Part shown: positions 3,057-18,309 of the stretch, one piece after another
Position numbering within the stretch: the first letter of the stretch is position 1
Layout of the letters: each line of letters starts with the position of its first letter
From: a virus
IMG/VR virus record: IMGVR_UViG_3300042555_002161
Span: 1 to 38,139 of that record
Reading direction: 5' to 3' (one strand)
DNA length: 38,139 nt
Made by a program: the position numbers and the translations under genes
Notes under the pieces: model-generated
What the model was told of the DNA's origin: nothing
The model's input: only the letters and a program-made list of their open reading frames with translations
Databases searched by the model: none

Positions 3057-3440
3057 TTAACGGGTTTGATCTTTGCGTATTGCAATAAAATTCTCATGCG
3101 CACGGCGCAGGATCGTTGGCACACGATGCCGGTCGCAATGTGGATCAATGCGACGCGCGATGTCGATGTTGCTCACTGATTGCAGGTGGTAGTGCAACAG
3201 CGCAACACATTGCTCACGCAGCTGCTCACGCATGGCGCGAATGGTGCGATTGGTGACCTCGGCCTCGGCTGCGATGGTTGGTATCGCAATGCCACTATCA
3301 GCCCTCATCTCACGCTTGAGCGCGGCTTCGTCAGGGTGCATCTCGACCGAAACTGGTGAGCCGGTCGCACCACGACGCCAGCGATCCCACTCACACACCT
3401 TCACGCGCACTTCGTCCTCAAATGGGTACGGCTCAGCCAT
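3057..3440 (-). CDS. probable late antiterminator, Q-like
   Basis: A 127-residue protein in the slot of lambda Q: last early gene, directly before the packaging and structural genes. The N-terminal VRVKVCEWDRWRRG resembles the WG.W core of phage antitermination Q proteins. Its C-terminal half (CVALLHYHLQSVSNIDIARRI... then a second helix) looks like a sigma-region-4-type helix-turn-helix, as in that family. By family knowledge it would modify RNA polymerase at the late promoter so that it reads through terminators, several of which are visible downstream. The start ATG at 3440 overlaps the stop region of the upstream initiator-like gene. The assignment rests on position and weak motif resemblance. 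Confidence 0.5.
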   Translation of the reverse strand: MAEPYPFEDEVRVKVCEWDRWRRGATGSPVSVEMHPDEAALKREMRADSGIAIPTIAAEAEVTNRTIRAMREQLREQCVALLHYHLQSVSNIDIARRIDPHCDRHRVPTILRRAHENFIAIRKDQTR

Positions 3441-4261
3441 CAGTCATCCTCACGTTCGTTGAAGTGCGTCTGGCACAGCCAAGTGCCACCGCGTTTGTAC
3501 TTTGCCAACGCACCGCACACCGCGCATGAGTCAGGCTTGGTGTTGACCATCGCCACTGCCTCACGCCACTCGGCATTGGTGAGGTATGAGCGTGGCCCTA
3601 CGAGGTATTGCCCACCGTCACGCAAGGCAGCGTCACTCTTGGCGATCACGTTGGCCACATGCGCCAAGACCAGATCAATCTCACGGTCGAGCTTCATGCG
3701 CTCCCACCTTCGTCTGCATTCGGCCTTGTACTTTTTGTGCATCGATTGTGGCCATGCTTGCCAGAAGCGATCGAATGGCAAAACACCAGCGTCGATAGAC
3801 GCGCTAGGGTTTATGGGAAGACTATGGGAAAACCCTTTATATAGGTGACCCTGATTTAGGTGCACGTCCTGCACCCAATTAGGTGCACCACGTTCACCGC
3901 CTTCTGCCAAATTAGGTGCACCACGTTCACCGCCTTCTGCCAAATTAGGTGCACCACGTTCACCGCCTTTCACGTCTTCCGGCCATGCAAGCGTGTACTC
4001 GTTACGTGACCACTTTTGCCCGCCAAATCCATGCCGGCGAATAGTCAGCCAACCGTTTTCCTTTCCCAATTTCACCTGCGTCAATACAGCACGCTTGGAC
4101 AAACCCGTTTCCGCAACCAACTGCTCGATGGTCGGAAAACACGGCTCACCCGCATCGTTGACATGACAAGAGAGCGTCAACAAAACGTGGCGCGTGGTAC
4201 TCGGCAGATCACTTTTCAGTAACCGCTGCCGCCATGACCAAGCTCGTCGTTCGTTGCTCAC
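3440..4261 (-). CDS. replication initiator-like protein with internal repeats
   Basis: 273 residues. The N-terminal 90 residues form a winged helix of the phage replication (HTH_36/lambda O-like) type: FPTIEQLVAETGLSKRAVL followed by a wing. A low-complexity linker carries an 11-residue repeat (GGERGAPNLAE, about 2.7 copies), then a conserved helical region (FDRFWQAWP...), and a C-terminal zinc-binding motif CAVC...LC..H. The start is GTG at 4261, overlapping the dnaB stop (GTGA). In lambda the O protein binds iterons inside its own gene; the DNA coding for the linker here is likewise iteron-like. It probably recruits the phage DnaB to the origin. Confidence 0.68.
   Translation of the reverse strand: MSNERRAWSWRQRLLKSDLPSTTRHVLLTLSCHVNDAGEPCFPTIEQLVAETGLSKRAVLTQVKLGKENGWLTIRRHGFGGQKWSRNEYTLAWPEDVKGGERGAPNLAEGGERGAPNLAEGGERGAPNWVQDVHLNQGHLYKGFSHSLPINPSASIDAGVLPFDRFWQAWPQSMHKKYKAECRRRWERMKLDREIDLVLAHVANVIAKSDAALRDGGQYLVGPRSYLTNAEWREAVAMVNTKPDSCAVCGALAKYKRGGTWLCQTHFNEREDD
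3853..3969. repeat. iteron-like 33-bp tandem repeat, candidate replication origin
   Basis: Exact 33-bp units run 3878-3910 and 3911-3943, with a partial third unit 3944-3969; a diverged copy lies at 3853-3876. Each exact unit carries the palindrome GGTGCACC (3882, 3915, 3948), and the diverged copy has GGTGCAC at 3859. An AT-richer stretch follows at about 3805-3845 on the downstream side of the gene. The arrangement, iterons within the initiator gene flanked by an AT-rich segment, matches lambda ori. Confidence 0.6.
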
Positions 4262-5679
4262 ACTCCACCTCTTTCCGCATACTGCTTTTGGGCGCGGAAT
4301 TGCCGCCCTGGCGCTTCACCTTCGTTGTAAAACTTCGTCAGTCTCGGCTCGTAATCCATGTGCACCGTGCCGATGCCGCCGTTGCGTTGCTTACCCACAA
4401 TCACCTTGGCGTCGTACATATCCTCTTCTTTTTGCGTGGCCACATACTCACGATGCAGCAGCAAAATGGTGTCGGCATCACTCTCGATTGAGCCGGAATC
4501 GCGCAGCTCGGAAATCACCGGCATTTTCTTTTCTTTGGCCGCGTCACGGTTTAACTGTGACAGCGCGATCACCGGGCAATTCAGCTCTTTGGCCAATCGT
4601 TTTAGGCCGGAGGTGACCGCGCCAATTTCCACGGCCCGATTGTCATAGCGCCCTTCCGAGTGAGCGAGCTGCACATAGTCGACAATCAGCAGCCCAAAGC
4701 CACCCACGCGCTTGGATTGCACCCGCGCACGCGCCACCAGCTCTTGGATGGTCAGCCCACCGGTTTGATCGATGTGGAAGTTGGCACTGTTAAGCTGCGT
4801 CATTGCCGCGTTGATGCGATCCCAATGCTTCCCATCAAGCCGATGCTCGCGGAATCTGCCGCTCGGAATACCGCTCTCACCTGAGAGAATCCGCACCGCC
4901 AGCTCGATGTCTGTCATCTCCATTGAGAACATGCCCACCGCCACCTTCGATTGCAGCGCCACGTTCGTTGCCACATTCACCGCGAAGGAAGTCTTGCCGA
5001 CCGCAGGCCGCGCACCGACCACGATCAACTGGCCAGGCTGCATCGGGTTCATCAGCCGATCAAGGTCTTTGTAACCCGTGCGGATGCCCGTAGGAGCCTC
5101 TGCATCGTCAAGGTGGGACATCAGCTCAACCAGCGCATCAGAAAGGCTGCGAAACGTGCCCTCGCCGCGTTTAGAGCGGTTGTCAACATCCGCCAACAAA
5201 CTCTGCGCTTGGTCCAGCAGCTGCCGCGCATTCTTGCCGTTTGGATCGTAGGCAATATCGGCCATTTTCTCGCCAGCGCGGATGATGGCGCGCATCACCG
5301 CACGCTCATGCACCACTTCCGCGTACACGCGCGCATTGCTTGAACTCACCGACGTCTGCGACAAATCCAAAATGTACTCAAAGCCGCCCTGCACACGCTT
5401 CAACTGGTCTCGGTCTTTCAGCCACTGGCTGACGGTAATCGCATCGGCCAATTTGTTTTCAGAGATCAACGCATGCGCCGCTTTGAAAATCAGCTGGTGC
5501 TCGCCGGTGTAGAAGTCAGCCTCAGCCACCACGCCCACCACAAAATCAAAGCAGCCGTTATCGTAGAGAAGCAAGCCCAGCACTGCGGCTTCCGCTTCCA
5601 GCGAATAGGGCGGCATCTTCAGCGCGGACATTGGTGCGCTTTCTGCCAGCATGTTGCGATCATCCACGCGATCATTCAC
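4258..5679 (-). CDS. dnaB: replicative DNA helicase DnaB
   Basis: Hexameric 5'-3' replicative helicase. The N-terminal primase-interaction domain (PPYSLEAEAAVLGLLL) is followed by a RecA-like domain with Walker A GARPAVGKTS at about 222-231, Walker B LLIVDYVQL at about 330-338, and the conserved ALSQLNRDA and RDSGSIESDAD motifs. The start is a GTG at 5679 with GGGGTG six to seven bases upstream; GTG 5688 is also in frame. Length (473) is normal for DnaB. A phage-encoded helicase removes the need for a lambda P-type loader, and none is visible. The stop overlaps the start of the initiator-like gene. Confidence 0.97.
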   Translation of the reverse strand: MNDRVDDRNMLAESAPMSALKMPPYSLEAEAAVLGLLLYDNGCFDFVVGVVAEADFYTGEHQLIFKAAHALISENKLADAITVSQWLKDRDQLKRVQGGFEYILDLSQTSVSSSNARVYAEVVHERAVMRAIIRAGEKMADIAYDPNGKNARQLLDQAQSLLADVDNRSKRGEGTFRSLSDALVELMSHLDDAEAPTGIRTGYKDLDRLMNPMQPGQLIVVGARPAVGKTSFAVNVATNVALQSKVAVGMFSMEMTDIELAVRILSGESGIPSGRFREHRLDGKHWDRINAAMTQLNSANFHIDQTGGLTIQELVARARVQSKRVGGFGLLIVDYVQLAHSEGRYDNRAVEIGAVTSGLKRLAKELNCPVIALSQLNRDAAKEKKMPVISELRDSGSIESDADTILLLHREYVATQKEEDMYDAKVIVGKQRNGGIGTVHMDYEPRLTKFYNEGEAPGRQFRAQKQYAERGGV

Positions 5680-8284: not shown

Positions 8285-8323
8285 ATTTTAGGCATACCTA
8301 CATTTGCAAGTCAAGGTATGCCT
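8285..8323 (-). promoter_or_regulatory. cro promoter with paired operators (immunity region)
   Basis: Two inverted near-palindromic sites, AGGCATACCT (8290-8299) and AGGTATGCCT (8314-8323), have centres 24 bp apart. On the minus strand TTGACT (8314-8309) and TAAAAT (8290-8285) make a -35/-10 with an 18-bp spacer, so each operator covers one promoter element. The same pair with the same spacing recurs at 9661-9694. The repressor's own promoter must lie here too; a weak candidate is TTGCAA at 8304 with TTTATT near 8328. Confidence 0.75.
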
Positions 8324-8349
8324 AAGATTTATTTTGCTAGCCTAAAAAA

Positions 8350-8838
8350 ATGAAGAACCTCGCCCACCGGGTAGAAGAGTGCTTGGCCGAATATGCCGTT
8401 CGAGAGAACGTCAAAGTTTCTGCTGCACGCGCTCGCCTGGCGAAGGCGGTGGGCATAAAAACCCCTTCCATATACGATTGGACCAACGGCAAGACCAAGC
8501 AACTCAGTGGTGGCAACTTAAACCGCGCCTCCGCCTTTTTTCAAGTCAGCCCCAAATGGTTTGAAACGGGCGACGGACCAAAGTACATCGCCGAAAGCAC
8601 CGAAGACGCGGTTGCTAGCGATCCCTTTGAAGCGCTTTTGCTTCGCGCCATTGAGCTTAAGCGCCGCGGCGTTCTTCGAGAGAAAGATCAGGACCACATA
8701 GCCAACAACTTGAGCTATGTGCTTGAGCAGGCCGAACGCAGCAAGCCGGTGGTCACGAGCAAACATATCACCAGCGTCGAACGGGACGCCTACAACGAAA
8801 CCGGGCAATCGCAAAAAAAGCAATTGGCCACGGGATAG
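8350..8838 (+). CDS. phage repressor (CI-type, no autoprotease domain)
   Basis: 162 residues. Helix-turn-helix RARLAKAVGIKTPSIYDWTN lies at about residues 28-47, followed by the NLNRASAFFQVSPKWFETGDG stretch common in phage CI-like repressors. The C-terminal 85 residues are helical and charged and show no S24 serine/lysine peptidase motifs, so the LexA-type RecA-triggered self-cleavage of lambda CI is not expected. It diverges from cro and presumably binds the AGGYATRCCT operators at 8290-8323 and 9661-9694. No Shine-Dalgarno is visible before ATG 8350, as with leaderless cI mRNA of lambda. Confidence 0.75.
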   Translation: MKNLAHRVEECLAEYAVRENVKVSAARARLAKAVGIKTPSIYDWTNGKTKQLSGGNLNRASAFFQVSPKWFETGDGPKYIAESTEDAVASDPFEALLLRAIELKRRGVLREKDQDHIANNLSYVLEQAERSKPVVTSKHITSVERDAYNETGQSQKKQLATG

Positions 8839-14150: not shown

Positions 14151-14593
14151 TGACCCTCACCGACGCCATCCTCGATGTGCTCCAAGACCTCAAGCGCCGG
14201 CGGCCGCTTGATCAGGTCCCCACGCTTACGATCGATGAAGCGGCGGAGTATATTGGCGTTTCCGTTTCACAGTTCCGCGACCAGGCACCAATCCACGGGC
14301 TGCAGTCGCGCAAAGTCATGGGCCGTGTGATGTACCGCCGCGCCGATCTTGACCAATTAGTAGAGGCACTATGGCTGGATACCGTAAACGATCAAAAGGC
14401 ACGGCAGAGTACTGGGAGCTTACGTGGCGCGAGCACGGCAAGCCGTGCACACAGAGCCTCGGTCGCGTCGACAAGTTGCGAGAGTCCGAAGTCCGCGAGC
14501 TCGCACGCCGCAAAGGTCGTGAGCTTATCCTCAGCGAGCACGCCGTCGTCAAGCCGCAGCTCAGCTTCGCCGAGTGGTGCCGACAATACCTAG
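14150..14593 (+). CDS. helix-turn-helix protein, candidate excisionase, overlapping int
   Basis: The first 80 residues are a MerR/excisionase-type DNA-binding domain (LTIDEAAEYIGVSVSQFRDQ ... KVMGRVMYRRADLDQLVEAL). The frame then runs on for 223 bases inside the integrase gene, where the residues become serine-rich and look like a shadow. So either the true protein carries an unstructured tail, or an indel has removed a stop just before int (a TAG lies in another frame at 14361). Adjacent to int, so an excisionase role is plausible. Confidence 0.55.
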   Translation: MTLTDAILDVLQDLKRRRPLDQVPTLTIDEAAEYIGVSVSQFRDQAPIHGLQSRKVMGRVMYRRADLDQLVEALWLDTVNDQKARQSTGSLRGASTASRAHRASVASTSCESPKSASSHAAKVVSLSSASTPSSSRSSASPSGADNT

Positions 14594-15399
14594 AGTGGCA
14601 CGGTGCCGAGTACCCGCATTCGCACGTCCGTGTGGCGCAGATTGTCGAGCAGCATTTGCTTGAACATTTCACTGGCACGCTTGAAGGCATTTCGCAGATT
14701 GATGTGGAGCGTTACAAATTTGCGCGCACCGATGCAGGGGCCGCACCAGGCACCGTCACCAAAGAAATGCGCACGCTTAAAGCCATGCTGAACCGCGCCG
14801 TCGCACTTGGCTTGCTCGCGCGCAGCCCGGCACAGTTAGTCAAAACCCCACGCAGCCTAGACAACAAAAAAGGCTTCACCTACTTCACCGCCGATGAGCT
14901 GCAAACGATTTATCAAGATGGCTGCGTCGACGATTGGCACCGCTGGGCGTGGCAGCTATACGCCAGCACCGGCGCGCGGTTGCAAGAGCTGCTCAACCTT
15001 AAATGGGCAGACGTCGGCACCAACACCCTGCACCTGGTCAGCACAGGTGAGGAGCGCACCAAGAGCGGCGAAGGCCGCGACGTGCCTTTAATGGCCAGCG
15101 CCACCGAAGCACTGGCATTCTTTCGCACATGGGAAGGCAAGAGCGATCTCTACGTGCTGCCGCGTGTGTACCGCACCAGCCTCTCACGCATCGCGGCACG
15201 GTGCATTCGGCGGGCAAAGCTGAAGGGCAGTTTGCACACGTTTCGGCACACATTCGCCAGCAACTTGGCGCTGGATCCGCGCATACCGATTTCAGCAATC
15301 AAAGAGTGGATGGGCCACTCAACCATTCGCGTGACGGAGCAATACATGCACCTGCGCGAAGGTGTCAGCAGTGAGATTTTGAGAGGGATGCGGTTATGA
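14371..15399 (+). CDS. int: tyrosine-type integrase
   Basis: 342 residues. An N-terminal arm/core-binding region (FAEWCRQYLEWHG... TVTKEMRTLKAML) is followed by the catalytic domain with R203 (STGARLQELL), a candidate K231, H289-x-x-R292 (HTFRHTFASNLA), H316 (EWMGHSTI) and the nucleophile Y325 (TEQYMHL). It recombines attP, 360 bases downstream, with a host tRNA-Glu gene. The start ATG 14371 lies within the preceding gene; the stop overlaps the next ATG. Confidence 0.96.
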   Translation: MAGYRKRSKGTAEYWELTWREHGKPCTQSLGRVDKLRESEVRELARRKGRELILSEHAVVKPQLSFAEWCRQYLEWHGAEYPHSHVRVAQIVEQHLLEHFTGTLEGISQIDVERYKFARTDAGAAPGTVTKEMRTLKAMLNRAVALGLLARSPAQLVKTPRSLDNKKGFTYFTADELQTIYQDGCVDDWHRWAWQLYASTGARLQELLNLKWADVGTNTLHLVSTGEERTKSGEGRDVPLMASATEALAFFRTWEGKSDLYVLPRVYRTSLSRIAARCIRRAKLKGSLHTFRHTFASNLALDPRIPISAIKEWMGHSTIRVTEQYMHLREGVSSEILRGMRL

Positions 15400-15757: not shown

Positions 15758-15805
15758 TGGCGTCCCCACGGGGATTCGAACCCCGGTTACCGCCGTGAAA
15801 GGGCG
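15758..15805 (-). other. attP: attP core: 3' half of tRNA-Glu(UUC)
   Basis: The minus strand from 15805 to 15758 reads as a tRNA from the anticodon stem to CCA: CGCCCTTTCACGGCGG (anticodon loop CUUUCAC, anticodon UUC), variable loop, T-arm GGGGTTCGAATCCCC and acceptor end GGGGACGCCA. No 5' half is present on its upstream side (above 15805), so it is not a gene. It is the typical shared core by which a tyrosine integrase inserts into a tRNA gene and restores its 3' half. Confidence 0.9.
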
Positions 15806-15865
15806 ATCCAGCACTTTATAAATCAGGCACTTACGACAGAGTGCCGATATTTTGCTGAGGCAACC

Positions 15866-15946: not shown

Positions 15947-15993
15947 TTTATTTGCAAAACGTGCTTGACACGTTCGCCAAAAGCGAACAGAAT
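15947..15993 (+). promoter_or_regulatory. accessory promoter 1 with palindrome in the spacer
   Basis: TTGACA (15965-15970), 17-bp spacer, CAGAAT (15988-15993). The spacer holds a perfect inverted repeat GTTCGC-(5)-GCGAAC (15972-15988), a natural operator for a dimeric regulator. The 25 bases 15947-15971 match 17400-17424 at 24 positions, so promoters 1 and 2 are related. Drives 16042-17387. Confidence 0.8.
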
Positions 15994-16041
15994 GCAGTCA
16001 TCGGAAGCAATCGTGCAAGCCGATACCTCTTGGAGAACACC

Positions 16042-16398
16042 ATGACTACATACTACTCCACCATCCAGTCCACCGGCTCGCGCGCCAGCTGCGGAGGCCT
16101 CGGCAGAATCAGCACACACCAAATTTCGCGCAAAGACATCGTGCGCATAGCTTTCGAGGTTTCCCAGCGCTCAGGCTGGACGGCAGAAGAGCACGTCGGC
16201 ATCAAGTTGATCGAAGCCGAAGACGGCAGCCTAAACTACGAGCGCGAGCTCACGGAAGAAGAATTGTTCCAAGCTTCGGTCGAGCGCTTGGGTGACGACG
16301 GCAAAATTTATGAGGTTTATGACCAGTCTAGCGACGTAGAAATGGCCGAGTACCGGCTCCGTTGCGAGGAATTCGGCCTTGAGCCGATTGAGGCTTAG
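16042..16398 (+). CDS. acidic small protein, candidate anti-CRISPR/anti-defence (118 aa)
   Basis: First gene after accessory promoter 1; ATG 16042 has TGGAGA upstream. The product starts MTTYYSTIQSTGSRASCGGL and is strongly acidic in its second half (ELTEEELFQASVERLGDDG): by my count about twice as many acidic as basic residues. It shares an operon with an Aca2-type repressor, the classic neighbour of anti-CRISPR genes. No known Acr is recognised in the sequence, so the function is an inference from context only. Confidence 0.55.
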   Translation: MTTYYSTIQSTGSRASCGGLGRISTHQISRKDIVRIAFEVSQRSGWTAEEHVGIKLIEAEDGSLNYERELTEEELFQASVERLGDDGKIYEVYDQSSDVEMAEYRLRCEEFGLEPIEA

Positions 16399-16408
16399 GG
16401 GAGTGCAA

Positions 16409-16594
16409 ATGCGAGCAATCAAAGGCGGTATCTACCATCTGTCCGGCAGTCTCAACGTTGCCAAAGTTGTTGTGTCAGGTTCTAAGTATGTTCGTTATGA
16501 AGTTTTTCGTGGCGGTATACGCCTGATTGAGCCCGATTGCAGGCTCAATCAATCGGACTTTTTACGGCTTTACTTTCCCGTCCTTGGCTGCTGA
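16409..16594 (+). CDS. small unknown protein of accessory operon 1 (61 aa)
   Basis: ATG 16409 with GGGGAG six to ten bases upstream, 10 bases after the preceding stop. Basic, beta-rich (IYHLSGSLNVAKVVVSGSKY). No family recognised. Candidate second anti-defence gene by position. Confidence 0.5.
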   Translation: MRAIKGGIYHLSGSLNVAKVVVSGSKYVRYEVFRGGIRLIEPDCRLNQSDFLRLYFPVLGC

Positions 16595-16654
16595 TCTACA
16601 CACGAATAGGTCTAGCATTCATTTGTTTTCGAAATCGCATAAAAGGGGGCGGCT

Positions 16655-16924
16655 ATGACACATAAAAACCGTGGCCGCATCACCGTCGCTCTTGGCGGTG
16701 CTTGGCGGATCTACACAACACGCATACCCGCCACCGGCAGAGCTATAGGCACTGTAGTCAGCAACGGCGAGACTGGCGCGCTGGTCTATATCGAGCGCAC
16801 CGGCATCTACGTCCGGTGCAATGCGGGAGCGGTTAGCTCTCTCCCGCAAAGCAAAGTTGTTGCTGCGGTCACTAAGGCTCGCATGTCCGGTCAACCGCAG
16901 AAATCGGTTAGATTGATCGGTTAA
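16655..16924 (+). CDS. small unknown protein of accessory operon 1 (89 aa)
   Basis: ATG 16655 with a strong AAGGGGGCGG upstream. Beta-rich N-terminal two thirds (RITVALGGAWRIYTTRIPAT, ALVYIERTGIYVRCNAGAV), then a basic helix (PQSKVVAAVTKARMSG). Ends one base before the Aca2-like start. Unknown; third candidate anti-defence gene. Confidence 0.55.
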   Translation: MTHKNRGRITVALGGAWRIYTTRIPATGRAIGTVVSNGETGALVYIERTGIYVRCNAGAVSSLPQSKVVAAVTKARMSGQPQKSVRLIG

Positions 16925-16925
16925 A

Positions 16926-17387
16926 ATGACCGCCACCGAACTGCAAGCGCTGCGGCGCTTGCTTTTTTTCACCCAGCAAGAGGCTGCCTCGATGATTTCA
17001 GGCACGTCTCATCGCGCCTGGCAACATTGGGAGGACGGCAAACGTGCCGTACCCGCCGACGTCGTTGAACGCATGCGGGAACTGGCTGACTGGCGCGAGC
17101 GCGCGATCGACGCGATGCTTGACGCGATCCAAGACAACATCGACGCTCACGACGGGCAGCAGCCGGAATCTATCCCGTTGGTCTGGTATTTCAATGCCGG
17201 CGATTGGAACGGCGGCCCAATCTTGTGGCGGCCACATCAATCAGCGTGCGCGGCCATGTTGGCGCTCAACGACCGCGTGCGTCTGGTGCCGTTTGACAGC
17301 GCGGCCTATGCCGCGTGGCTTGGCGACAAGGCCGACTCTAGCGAACACCGCGCCATGTGGGCTACCATCGCTCAAAAAACCCGCTGA
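16926..17387 (+). CDS. aca2: YdiL/DUF1870-type HTH regulator, Aca2-like
   Basis: 153 residues. The first 60 match the Aca2/YdiL pattern: MTATELQALRRLLFFTQQEA, then ISGTSHRAWQHWEDGKRAVP and ADVVERMRELADW. Aca2 proteins repress acr operons by binding inverted repeats in the acr promoter. Here the matching palindrome GTTCGC-N5-GCGAAC lies in the promoter of the same operon (15972-15988). The C-terminal 90 residues are longer than in usual Aca2 (about 120 total) and resemble the second domain of YdiL. It is the last gene of the operon, as is usual for aca genes. Confidence 0.72.
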   Translation: MTATELQALRRLLFFTQQEAASMISGTSHRAWQHWEDGKRAVPADVVERMRELADWRERAIDAMLDAIQDNIDAHDGQQPESIPLVWYFNAGDWNGGPILWRPHQSACAAMLALNDRVRLVPFDSAAYAAWLGDKADSSEHRAMWATIAQKTR

Positions 17388-17399
17388 TACATCCATCAT

Positions 17400-17446
17400 T
17401 TTATTTGCAAAAAGTGCTTGACACACTATCCCGATTGTGGGATAGT
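17400..17446 (+). promoter_or_regulatory. accessory promoter 2 with long palindrome
   Basis: TTGACA (17418-17423), 17-bp spacer, GATAGT (17441-17446). A perfect inverted repeat ACTATCCC-(6)-GGGATAGT (17425-17446) fills the spacer and the -10. The upstream 25 bases (17400-17424) are nearly identical to those of promoter 1, but the operator is different, so a different regulator is expected, plausibly the protein at 18031-18309. Confidence 0.82.
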
Positions 17447-17466
17447 AAACACATGGCAGCACGGTA

Positions 17467-17488
17467 CTAGATCACCGATCTGATCTAG
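17467..17488 (+). promoter_or_regulatory. hairpin in the leader of accessory operon 2
   Basis: CTAGATC/GATCTAG with an eight-base loop, between promoter 2 and ATG 17526 in an otherwise untranslated 80-base leader. It could be a second operator or an RNA control element; Aca2-type proteins are known to act on RNA as well as DNA. Confidence 0.4.
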
Positions 17489-17525
17489 CCTGACCCCGGC
17501 AGGTTGCACCGGATGGAGATGCAAA

Positions 17526-17783
17526 ATGAAAAAAGCACAATTCCCCGCAGAAATTCAAAACGCAATAGCTGCCGGATTCGTTATTGATGATTCGTTGAAC
17601 GATGTTCGCGTCACCGGCGAGTTGAGTTACTACGACCACAACGGGAATCCGGACAATCCATCGATGGTCTATAGGTTGTGGGATGATGCACCGGACGGCG
17701 AAATCGCCGGAATGCGTTTCGAGGTCTATGACGACGGCAGGGTTGAATCAGACCGAATTGATGCAAACGGCGCGATTCTCTGA
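17526..17783 (+). CDS. acidic small protein, candidate anti-defence (85 aa)
   Basis: First gene of accessory operon 2; TGGAG lies nine bases before the ATG. Very acidic (WDDAPDGEIAG, EVYDDGRVESDRID), mixed alpha/beta, starting MKKAQFPAEIQNAIAAGFVI. No family recognised. Small, acidic, and followed by an HTH gene, so it fits the profile of anti-CRISPR-type proteins; unproven. Confidence 0.55.
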   Translation: MKKAQFPAEIQNAIAAGFVIDDSLNDVRVTGELSYYDHNGNPDNPSMVYRLWDDAPDGEIAGMRFEVYDDGRVESDRIDANGAIL

Positions 17784-18034
17784 TGCGCATTTTCGCATCT
17801 CTGATGCGCCGGGCCGATGCGCTTCGGCGTGTCGAGTCCGACCCGGCCCGCGCTGAATGGTGGGCTGGGTATATTCGCGGGCTGCGTCGTGCGCACCACG
17901 GCAATAATTTCGGCACTGAGGCAGAACATCAAATGTGGCTGGATGCGGCAGACTCGACCGATACGCTCCGCGCATCGTTAGGCGCGGGCTATCGCGCCGG
18001 CCTGACGCTGACCGCAATCGATCCTCCCAAATGA
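17783..18034 (+). CDS. unknown protein of accessory operon 2 (83 aa)
   Basis: Start ATG 17783 shares a base with the previous stop (TGATG). Helical, with WWAGYIRGLRRAHHGNNFGT and a C-terminal ATLRASLGAGYRAGL-type stretch. No family recognised. Ends in an ATGA overlap with the HTH gene. Confidence 0.5.
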   Translation: MRIFASLMRRADALRRVESDPARAEWWAGYIRGLRRAHHGNNFGTEAEHQMWLDAADSTDTLRASLGAGYRAGLTLTAIDPPK

Positions 18035-18309
18035 GCGCTGCGGCCATCATTGAGTCGTGGATGCAGGTTGTCCGGTTTGAGGGCTGGACCGACACCGATT
18101 GCCTCAACGACCTCAACCGCTCAATGCGGACACGGTACACACTGTCGCGGCTCGGTGAGTGGCGCAACTGCAAACGACCGATGCCGCCGGAGGTGCGGCG
18201 GTACATGCTCGCTATAGGCATCGGCGTTTTGCTCAAAAAACACGGCATCCCTGCTGACACGTACGATGACGGCAGCAATTTTGATGCACTTGCGGATGAT
18301 TTGACGTAG
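18031..18309 (+). CDS. helix-turn-helix protein ending accessory operon 2 (Aca-like candidate)
   Basis: 92 residues from ATG 18031. Residues 24-58 read as a helix-turn-helix with the sequence LNRSMRTRYTLSRLGEWRN, then CKRPMPPEVRRYML, similar in rhythm to small phage repressors whose recognition helix precedes a W/P-rich turn (EWRNGKR.. type). It is the terminal gene of a short operon whose promoter holds a 22-bp palindrome, so autoregulation is likely. It is not the same family as the protein at 16926. Confidence 0.5.
   Translation: MSAAAIIESWMQVVRFEGWTDTDCLNDLNRSMRTRYTLSRLGEWRNCKRPMPPEVRRYMLAIGIGVLLKKHGIPADTYDDGSNFDALADDLT

Follow-up and report, generated by a model that had tools for sequence, protein, structure and literature searches.

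Is the small protein that ends the second of two short gene cassettes in this phage an Aca-type regulator, and do the genes ahead of it act against host defences? A first-pass annotation had suggested as much, reading the region as a modular anti-defence island with a possibly undescribed regulator. The window analysed here is an entire virus record of 38,139 bases, whose gene content includes a lambda-type portal, a capsid-protease fusion, a DnaB-like helicase and a tyrosine integrase.

Two cassettes beside a tRNA-Glu sequence

The setting of the cassettes is given by the following features.

8350-8838: main phage repressor gene (HTH_3)
14371-15399: integrase gene, adjoining the tRNA-Glu sequence
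15758-15830, minus strand: tRNA-Glu sequence beside the integrase gene, probable attachment site (attP)
15965-15993: cassette 1 promoter, carrying the palindrome GTTCGC-CAAAA-GCGAAC at 15972-15988
16042-17387, plus strand: cassette 1, three small genes (118, 61 and 89 aa) and a terminal Aca2 gene (16926-17387, 153 aa)

Part of the tRNA-Glu sequence matches tRNA-Glu genes of other records at 98% identity over 50 bases, and it probably serves as attP. Both cassettes, which lie directly beyond it, would thus stand at the end of the integrated prophage. Their 3' limit is set by minus-strand genes from 18412 onwards that have, as read from their ORFs, an Rz-type lysis look. Prophage accessory genes commonly sit at such places, and the best explanation of the segment is that a temperate tailed phage carries it as a self-contained accessory cassette. 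Elsewhere in the window, inverted repeats (AGGCATACCT / AGGTATGCCT, 8291-8325) upstream of the HTH_3 gene are likely the operators of the main phage repressor.

Cassette 1 looks like a textbook operon of small genes and Aca2, a known anti-CRISPR operon type. Its terminal protein matches Pfam Aca2_YdiL (4.8e-21) and, weakly, an MqsA-type family, while none of the three cargo proteins (pI 4.5, 9.7 and 11.5) could be assigned to a family at a meaningful level. A search of 185 sampled genomes gave no Aca2_YdiL homologue. The leader of cassette 1 carries a hairpin (15990-16046).

Cassette 2 follows at once.

17400-17424, plus strand: A/T-rich upstream element and -35 (TTTATTTGCAAAAAGTGCTTGACAC), 24 of 25 positions identical to 15947-15971 of cassette 1
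17418-17446, plus strand: sigma-70-type promoter TTGACA-17-GATAGT (TTGACA 17418-17423, GATAGT 17441-17446; 10/12)
17425-17446: putative operator palindrome ACTATCCC-GATTGT-GGGATAGT, 22 bp, 8 of 8 pairs, over spacer and -10
17467-17488, leader: second perfect 22-bp 8-N6-8 palindrome, CTAGATCA-CCGATC-TGATCTAG
17526-17783, plus strand: cargo gene 1 (P0001), 85 aa, pI 4.13, 17 D/E against 7 K/R
17783-18034, plus strand: cargo gene 2 (P0002), 83 aa, pI 9.67
18031-18309, plus strand: P0003, predicted helix-turn-helix autorepressor, 92 aa, pI 5.72, founder of the family in alignments A4 and A5

The earlier description of a separate promoter with a palindrome covering its -10, followed by a very acidic protein and two more reading frames joined through overlapping stop and start codons, was confirmed in every part; the junctions are TGATG (P0001/P0002, 1-bp overlap) and ATGA (P0002/P0003, 4-bp overlap). 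The palindrome is unique in the window even with three mismatches allowed (0.04 expected). Dinucleotide shuffling of the 130 bp before the first gene gave a fully paired N6 palindrome in 4 of 3000 trials, and shuffling of the 141-bp leader region did so in 44 of 20000. The second palindrome, overlooked at first reading, could form an RNA hairpin or be a second operator; elsewhere in the family, a 7-bp leader hairpin occurs in one cassette (cassette 2 of L009, see below), and the L030 leader is without one.

Cassette 2 had also been said to copy the design of cassette 1 with a different operator. The operators do differ, ACTATCCC-N6 here against GTTCGC-N5 there, and the layout is shared, but the nearly identical promoters are no proof of copying because the element is widespread: TTTGCAAANNGTGCTTGACA is present in 25 viral contig stretches. 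The resemblance is largely that of a common strong phage promoter element, and duplication, as deduced from the shared promoters, was dropped for that reason.

Family and operators of the terminal protein

P0003 has no meaningful match in Pfam, PHROGs, NCBIfam or PADLOC, and ten relatives gave isolated weak matches only in the same comparison. No Pfam HTH model is significant for any of the 11 members, the only matches of HTH type being HTH_58 (0.15) and WH_MCM3_C (0.014), each in a single member. Shared by the family, with variants, is the segment R-L-x-E-W-R-x-G-x-x-P-V-P-x-x-V-x-x-Y-M, of which 23 residues align in hhalign with the Aca2 segment WEDGKRAVPADVVERM (P = 5e-4, probability 31%); this is consistent with a helix-turn-helix, not proof of one. 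The HTH nature of the family is thus a prediction drawn from the conserved RLxEWRxGxRPVPxxVxxYM segment and this alignment. The protein had been called unrelated to the HTH protein of cassette 1, which is roughly right, the 23-residue helix match being the sole likeness to Aca2. A PDB search with the family profile returned one irrelevant match (SG122_C3, E 0.013; no single stretch significant).

The family is rare. Scanning 84,980 species genomes with a pattern gave five loci, and profile searches gave four more members in 185 genomes of one class and one more in 369 genomes; a phylum-wide sample held a member already known and no other. No further viral member appeared when viral contigs were scanned with P0003, two of its relatives (L009b and L030) and the recognition-helix pattern, nor did tblastn of these three proteins against a phage collection give any hit. 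Relatives occur on Halomonas and Pseudomonas plasmids. Two solo members (L028 and L038) with an inserted ENRNGRG segment, in genomes of 2.0 Mb, have neither small genes nor a palindrome beside them and are perhaps domesticated regulators.

Like P0003, its relatives end runs of small genes: twice in L009, and in L030 and the Halomonas loci L003, L004, L008, L010 and L011. L009 is a groundwater gammaproteobacterial MAG whose prophage carries two cassettes in series, each ended by a member and followed, as in the window, by lysis-type genes on the other strand (a reading from ORF sequences). In L030, genes of 64 and 86 aa precede a 106-aa member, and the next frame, on the other strand, is glycine-rich and a probable tail gene. 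Halomonas conjugative plasmids carry the member at the end of a run that can reach eight genes, most of them small, next to umuDC and a conjugation module. The eight-gene run beside umuDC (L003, 1103-4282, and L045) may be an early or anti-defence module of the plasmid.

Weak local matches aside, the non-HTH genes are unrelated between lineages, and each independent lineage has a different gene immediately before the HTH gene. Apart from one DUF2786/DUF7168 protein and one DUF5983 protein, the relatives' cargo is essentially unclassified. Such turnover of cargo would suit a regulator that passes from one cargo to another. The guilt-by-association check that had been proposed was borne out in so far as homologues do follow diverse small genes, in phage and on plasmids, but searches of Pfam, NCBIfam, PHROGs and PADLOC revealed neither a known acr nor any other anti-defence gene next to a family member.

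The operator geometry recurs across the family: an 8-N6-8 palindrome with seven or eight of its eight pairs formed lies on the core promoter in the window and in eight other operons.

Window: ACTATCCC-gattgt-GGGATAGT
L009 cassette 1 (ended by L009a, 3403-3687): ACTAGGCC-agattt-GGCCTAAT
L009 cassette 2 (ended by L009b, 4935-5246): ACTATCCC-acttct-GGGATATT, core at 3935-3952
L030: CATACACC-taatta-GGTGTATA
Halomonas L003, L004 and L008: ATAGTCCT-N6-AGGACTAT, with one-mismatch versions in L010 and L011

The palindrome centres lie at -46 to -51 from the first gene, or at -72 and -90 in two operons with leader hairpins. The pattern TAnnCC-N6-GGnnTA, which was formulated after the sites had been seen, arose in 4, 6, 7 and 0 of 20000 shuffles for the window, L009a, L009b and L030, respectively. 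Taken singly, palindromes with seven of eight pairs reach modest P values (41 to 159 in 3000 shuffles); what carries weight is that they recur in the same position, the five Halomonas loci being close relatives and counted as one lineage. No N6 palindrome is visible upstream of the members in L002, L005, L007, L006, L028, L029, L031 and L038; the first three have a different upstream region, and L006 is a divergent member.

The predicted recognition helix, YTLSRLGEWRN, is identical in P0003 and L009b, proteins only 37% identical overall, and these two share the operator half ACTATCCC and the longer match ACTATCCC-N6-GGGATA. The other members have other helices (YDHARFGQWRR in L009a, YKAQRLMDWRN in L030, YRLNRLYEWRA and close variants in Halomonas) and other half-sites (ACTAGGCC, CATACACC and ATAGTCCT, respectively). 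That the operator sequence follows the predicted recognition helix is, to judge by these alignments, well supported, with one pair of proteins identical in this respect. This agreement is the strongest evidence that P0003 itself would read the palindrome at 17425-17446. The presence of the operator is not enough to mark a P0003 locus: TATCCC-N6-GGGATA is found, too, in promoters of phage genes lacking a P0003 relative, of which at least two (L019 and L024) come with short ORFs resembling other regulators; a scan of viral contigs for TTGACA together with this motif gave nine loci and no convincing family member.

Cargo genes

P0001 has no match in the four libraries and no relative in phage or plasmid collections; a 42-residue likeness to the first gene of L009 cassette 2 was too weak to use. 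P0002 has a conserved domain, WAGYIRGLRRAHHG..FGTEAEH..W...GAGYRAG, which seems to be an unnamed one. Viral contigs hold relatives of 72% (L043, the domain alone) and 50% (L044, with a C-terminal extension), both near other phage genes and with no P0003 relative nearby, and Aeromonas and Shewanella plasmids hold partial relatives with C-terminal extensions; a P0002 profile found nothing in 369 genomes. A 23-residue match between P0002 and an L006 gene was too weak to use. In three proteins, from Aeromonas and Shewanella plasmids (L040 and L042) and from viral contig L044, the domain is followed by different DNA-binding-like C-termini.

L040, 2435-2818: P0002 domain, then an HTH-like tail (HTH_23/HTH_17, weak, E 0.03-0.04)
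L042, 2435-2839: P0002 domain, then a tail that is ribbon-helix-helix-like by eye
L044, 3986-4381: P0002 domain, then a tail that is ribbon-helix-helix-like by eye

Because such tails follow it, the domain may be a partner of DNA-binding proteins, and P0002 itself could serve as an effector or work alongside the repressor as its partner. In L043, two near-identical repeats (CGAATTATYGTTC) lie in the promoter before the 72% relative (3900-4000), suggesting control by another regulator.

Pfam, NCBIfam, PHROGs and PADLOC, which do not include every published Acr, gave no match of either cargo protein to a known anti-CRISPR or a defence-related model. An anti-defence role for these genes is plausible, and P0001 is the better candidate than P0002 for a counter-defence effector. 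The anti-defence half of the island proposed at first finds no support in these searches, the cargo being without such matches and no known acr gene having turned up next to the family members; that relatives of the 83-aa protein look like regulator parts was likewise counted against it.

Competing explanations and relation to known Aca proteins

The best explanation, and in our view a probable one, is that P0003 is an Aca-like terminal autorepressor that shuts its own accessory cassette. The strong sigma-70-type promoter would fire when the phage enters the cell and give one coupled message for the acidic 85-aa protein, the basic 83-aa protein and P0003. A P0003 dimer would then bind the 8-N6-8 palindrome over spacer and -10 and, as the co-variation of family and operator suggests, close its own operon once enough had been made. 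This would follow the acr-aca logic, in which small inhibitor protein is made in a burst on entry and expression stays low in the lysogen.

Three other explanations have to be weighed against it. P0002 and P0003 might together form a two-part regulator that leaves the acidic 85-aa protein as sole cargo, as the ATGA overlap of the two genes and the DNA-binding-like C-termini after the P0002 domain in L040, L042 and L044 would suggest; yet the L040 tail gives a weak HTH match (E 0.03), the ribbon-helix-helix reading was made by eye, and P0003 relatives have no convincing P0002-like neighbour beyond the 23-residue L006 match, so that we hold it to be unlikely. Less probable again is a toxin-antitoxin operon of HigBA or MqsRA order, with P0002 the toxin and P0003 an HTH antitoxin autoregulating over the palindrome. 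A toxin-antitoxin pair keeps its partner gene, whereas here the gene ahead of the HTH gene changes from one independent lineage to the next. For P0002, searches of Pfam, PHROGs, NCBIfam and PADLOC gave no toxin-family match, its L043 and L044 relatives stand apart from any P0003 relative, and the conserved toxin gene paired with an HTH gene that marks type II systems was not found. What such an operon would explain is the small gene before an HTH gene, their overlap and the palindrome on the promoter; moreover, several Aca proteins resemble HigA or MqsA antitoxins (PMC9410906), and the neighbouring Aca2 has its weak MqsA-type match.

We give equally little credence to the idea that the palindrome is the operator of another regulator, either the main phage repressor or a host protein, and that P0003 does something else. 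The presence of TATCCC-N6-GGGATA in promoters of phage genes with no P0003 relative speaks for it, but only one such site exists in the window, the main repressor region has different repeats, and the identical half-site recurs with the sole relative whose helix is identical.

Returning to P0003 as an Aca-like autorepressor, acr-aca operons have inverted repeats in the core promoter through which Aca proteins repress (PMC9410906, PMC8434428). The acr-aca2 operon (for example, acrIF8-aca2 of phage ZF40; PMC8434428, PMC9410906) shares with cassette 2 a strong sigma-70-type promoter, small genes, an inverted repeat over the core promoter and a terminal HTH gene. In contrast to Aca2, P0003 is without the Aca2_YdiL domain (PF08965, called DUF1870 in PMC9410906; no match at E<=1), has 92 aa rather than 125-153 aa, is predicted to use an ACTATCCC-N6 rather than a GTTCGC-N5 operator, and is linked to no known acr gene. 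Aca1 and Aca3-Aca12 (PMC9410906, PMC9765179) have in common with P0003 the terminal position and the inferred autorepression over an inverted repeat; most known Acas have 55-79 aa, and Aca12 has 140 aa. P0003 and its ten relatives have no match at E<=1 to the Pfam families listed for Aca1-Aca10, which for Aca1, Aca3-Aca7, Aca9 and Aca10 are HTH_24, HTH_8, HTH_XRE, HTH_31, HTH_3, HTH_19, HTH_23, KORA and HTH_28 (PMC9410906), and as far as Pfam domains tell P0003 falls outside Aca1-Aca7, Aca9 and Aca10. HigBA and MqsRA likewise have a small gene before an HTH autorepressor and a palindromic operator, but the cassette 2 family has no conserved partner gene or toxin-family match.

P0003 thus agrees with the Aca class in being a small predicted HTH protein whose gene closes a series of small genes on a mobile element, with an inverted repeat in its own core promoter (17425-17446, and in eight other operons); linkage to a verified or homologous acr gene was not found beyond the indirect one given by the adjacent cassette, which ends in Aca2. 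The regulatory half of the proposal of an undescribed Aca-type regulator is well supported by family, operator geometry and helix agreement, and the acr link is not. We have accordingly filed P0003 as a predicted terminal autorepressor of a small-gene cassette and not as a demonstrated Aca. The best reading of the sequences is that it works like an Aca and belongs to a sequence family of its own, found in phages and conjugative plasmids and undescribed in Pfam, PHROG, NCBIfam and PADLOC, although it may coincide with one of the 36 computational Aca candidates of AcaFinder (PMC9765179). A bolder version, in which the family is a new Aca-type class with helix-predictable operators in a fixed 8-N6-8 frame, acting with the 83-aa partner and RNA control by the leader hairpin, we regard as rather doubtful.

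Aca genes are a main bait for anti-CRISPRs and other counter-defence genes, and each new Aca family opens neighbourhoods that existing baits have missed. The P0003 family has a recognisable sequence signature and operator geometry, occurs on phages and conjugative plasmids, and stands here in tandem with an Aca2 cassette. Its cargo, two genes here and more in L009, L030 and the Halomonas plasmids, is short, mostly unclassified and ready for direct testing, and the agreement of helix and operator is a prediction that one binding experiment could check. If P0003 does represent a new Aca-type class, it would be usable as a bait for new counter-defence genes, such regulators marking where viruses and plasmids hide them.
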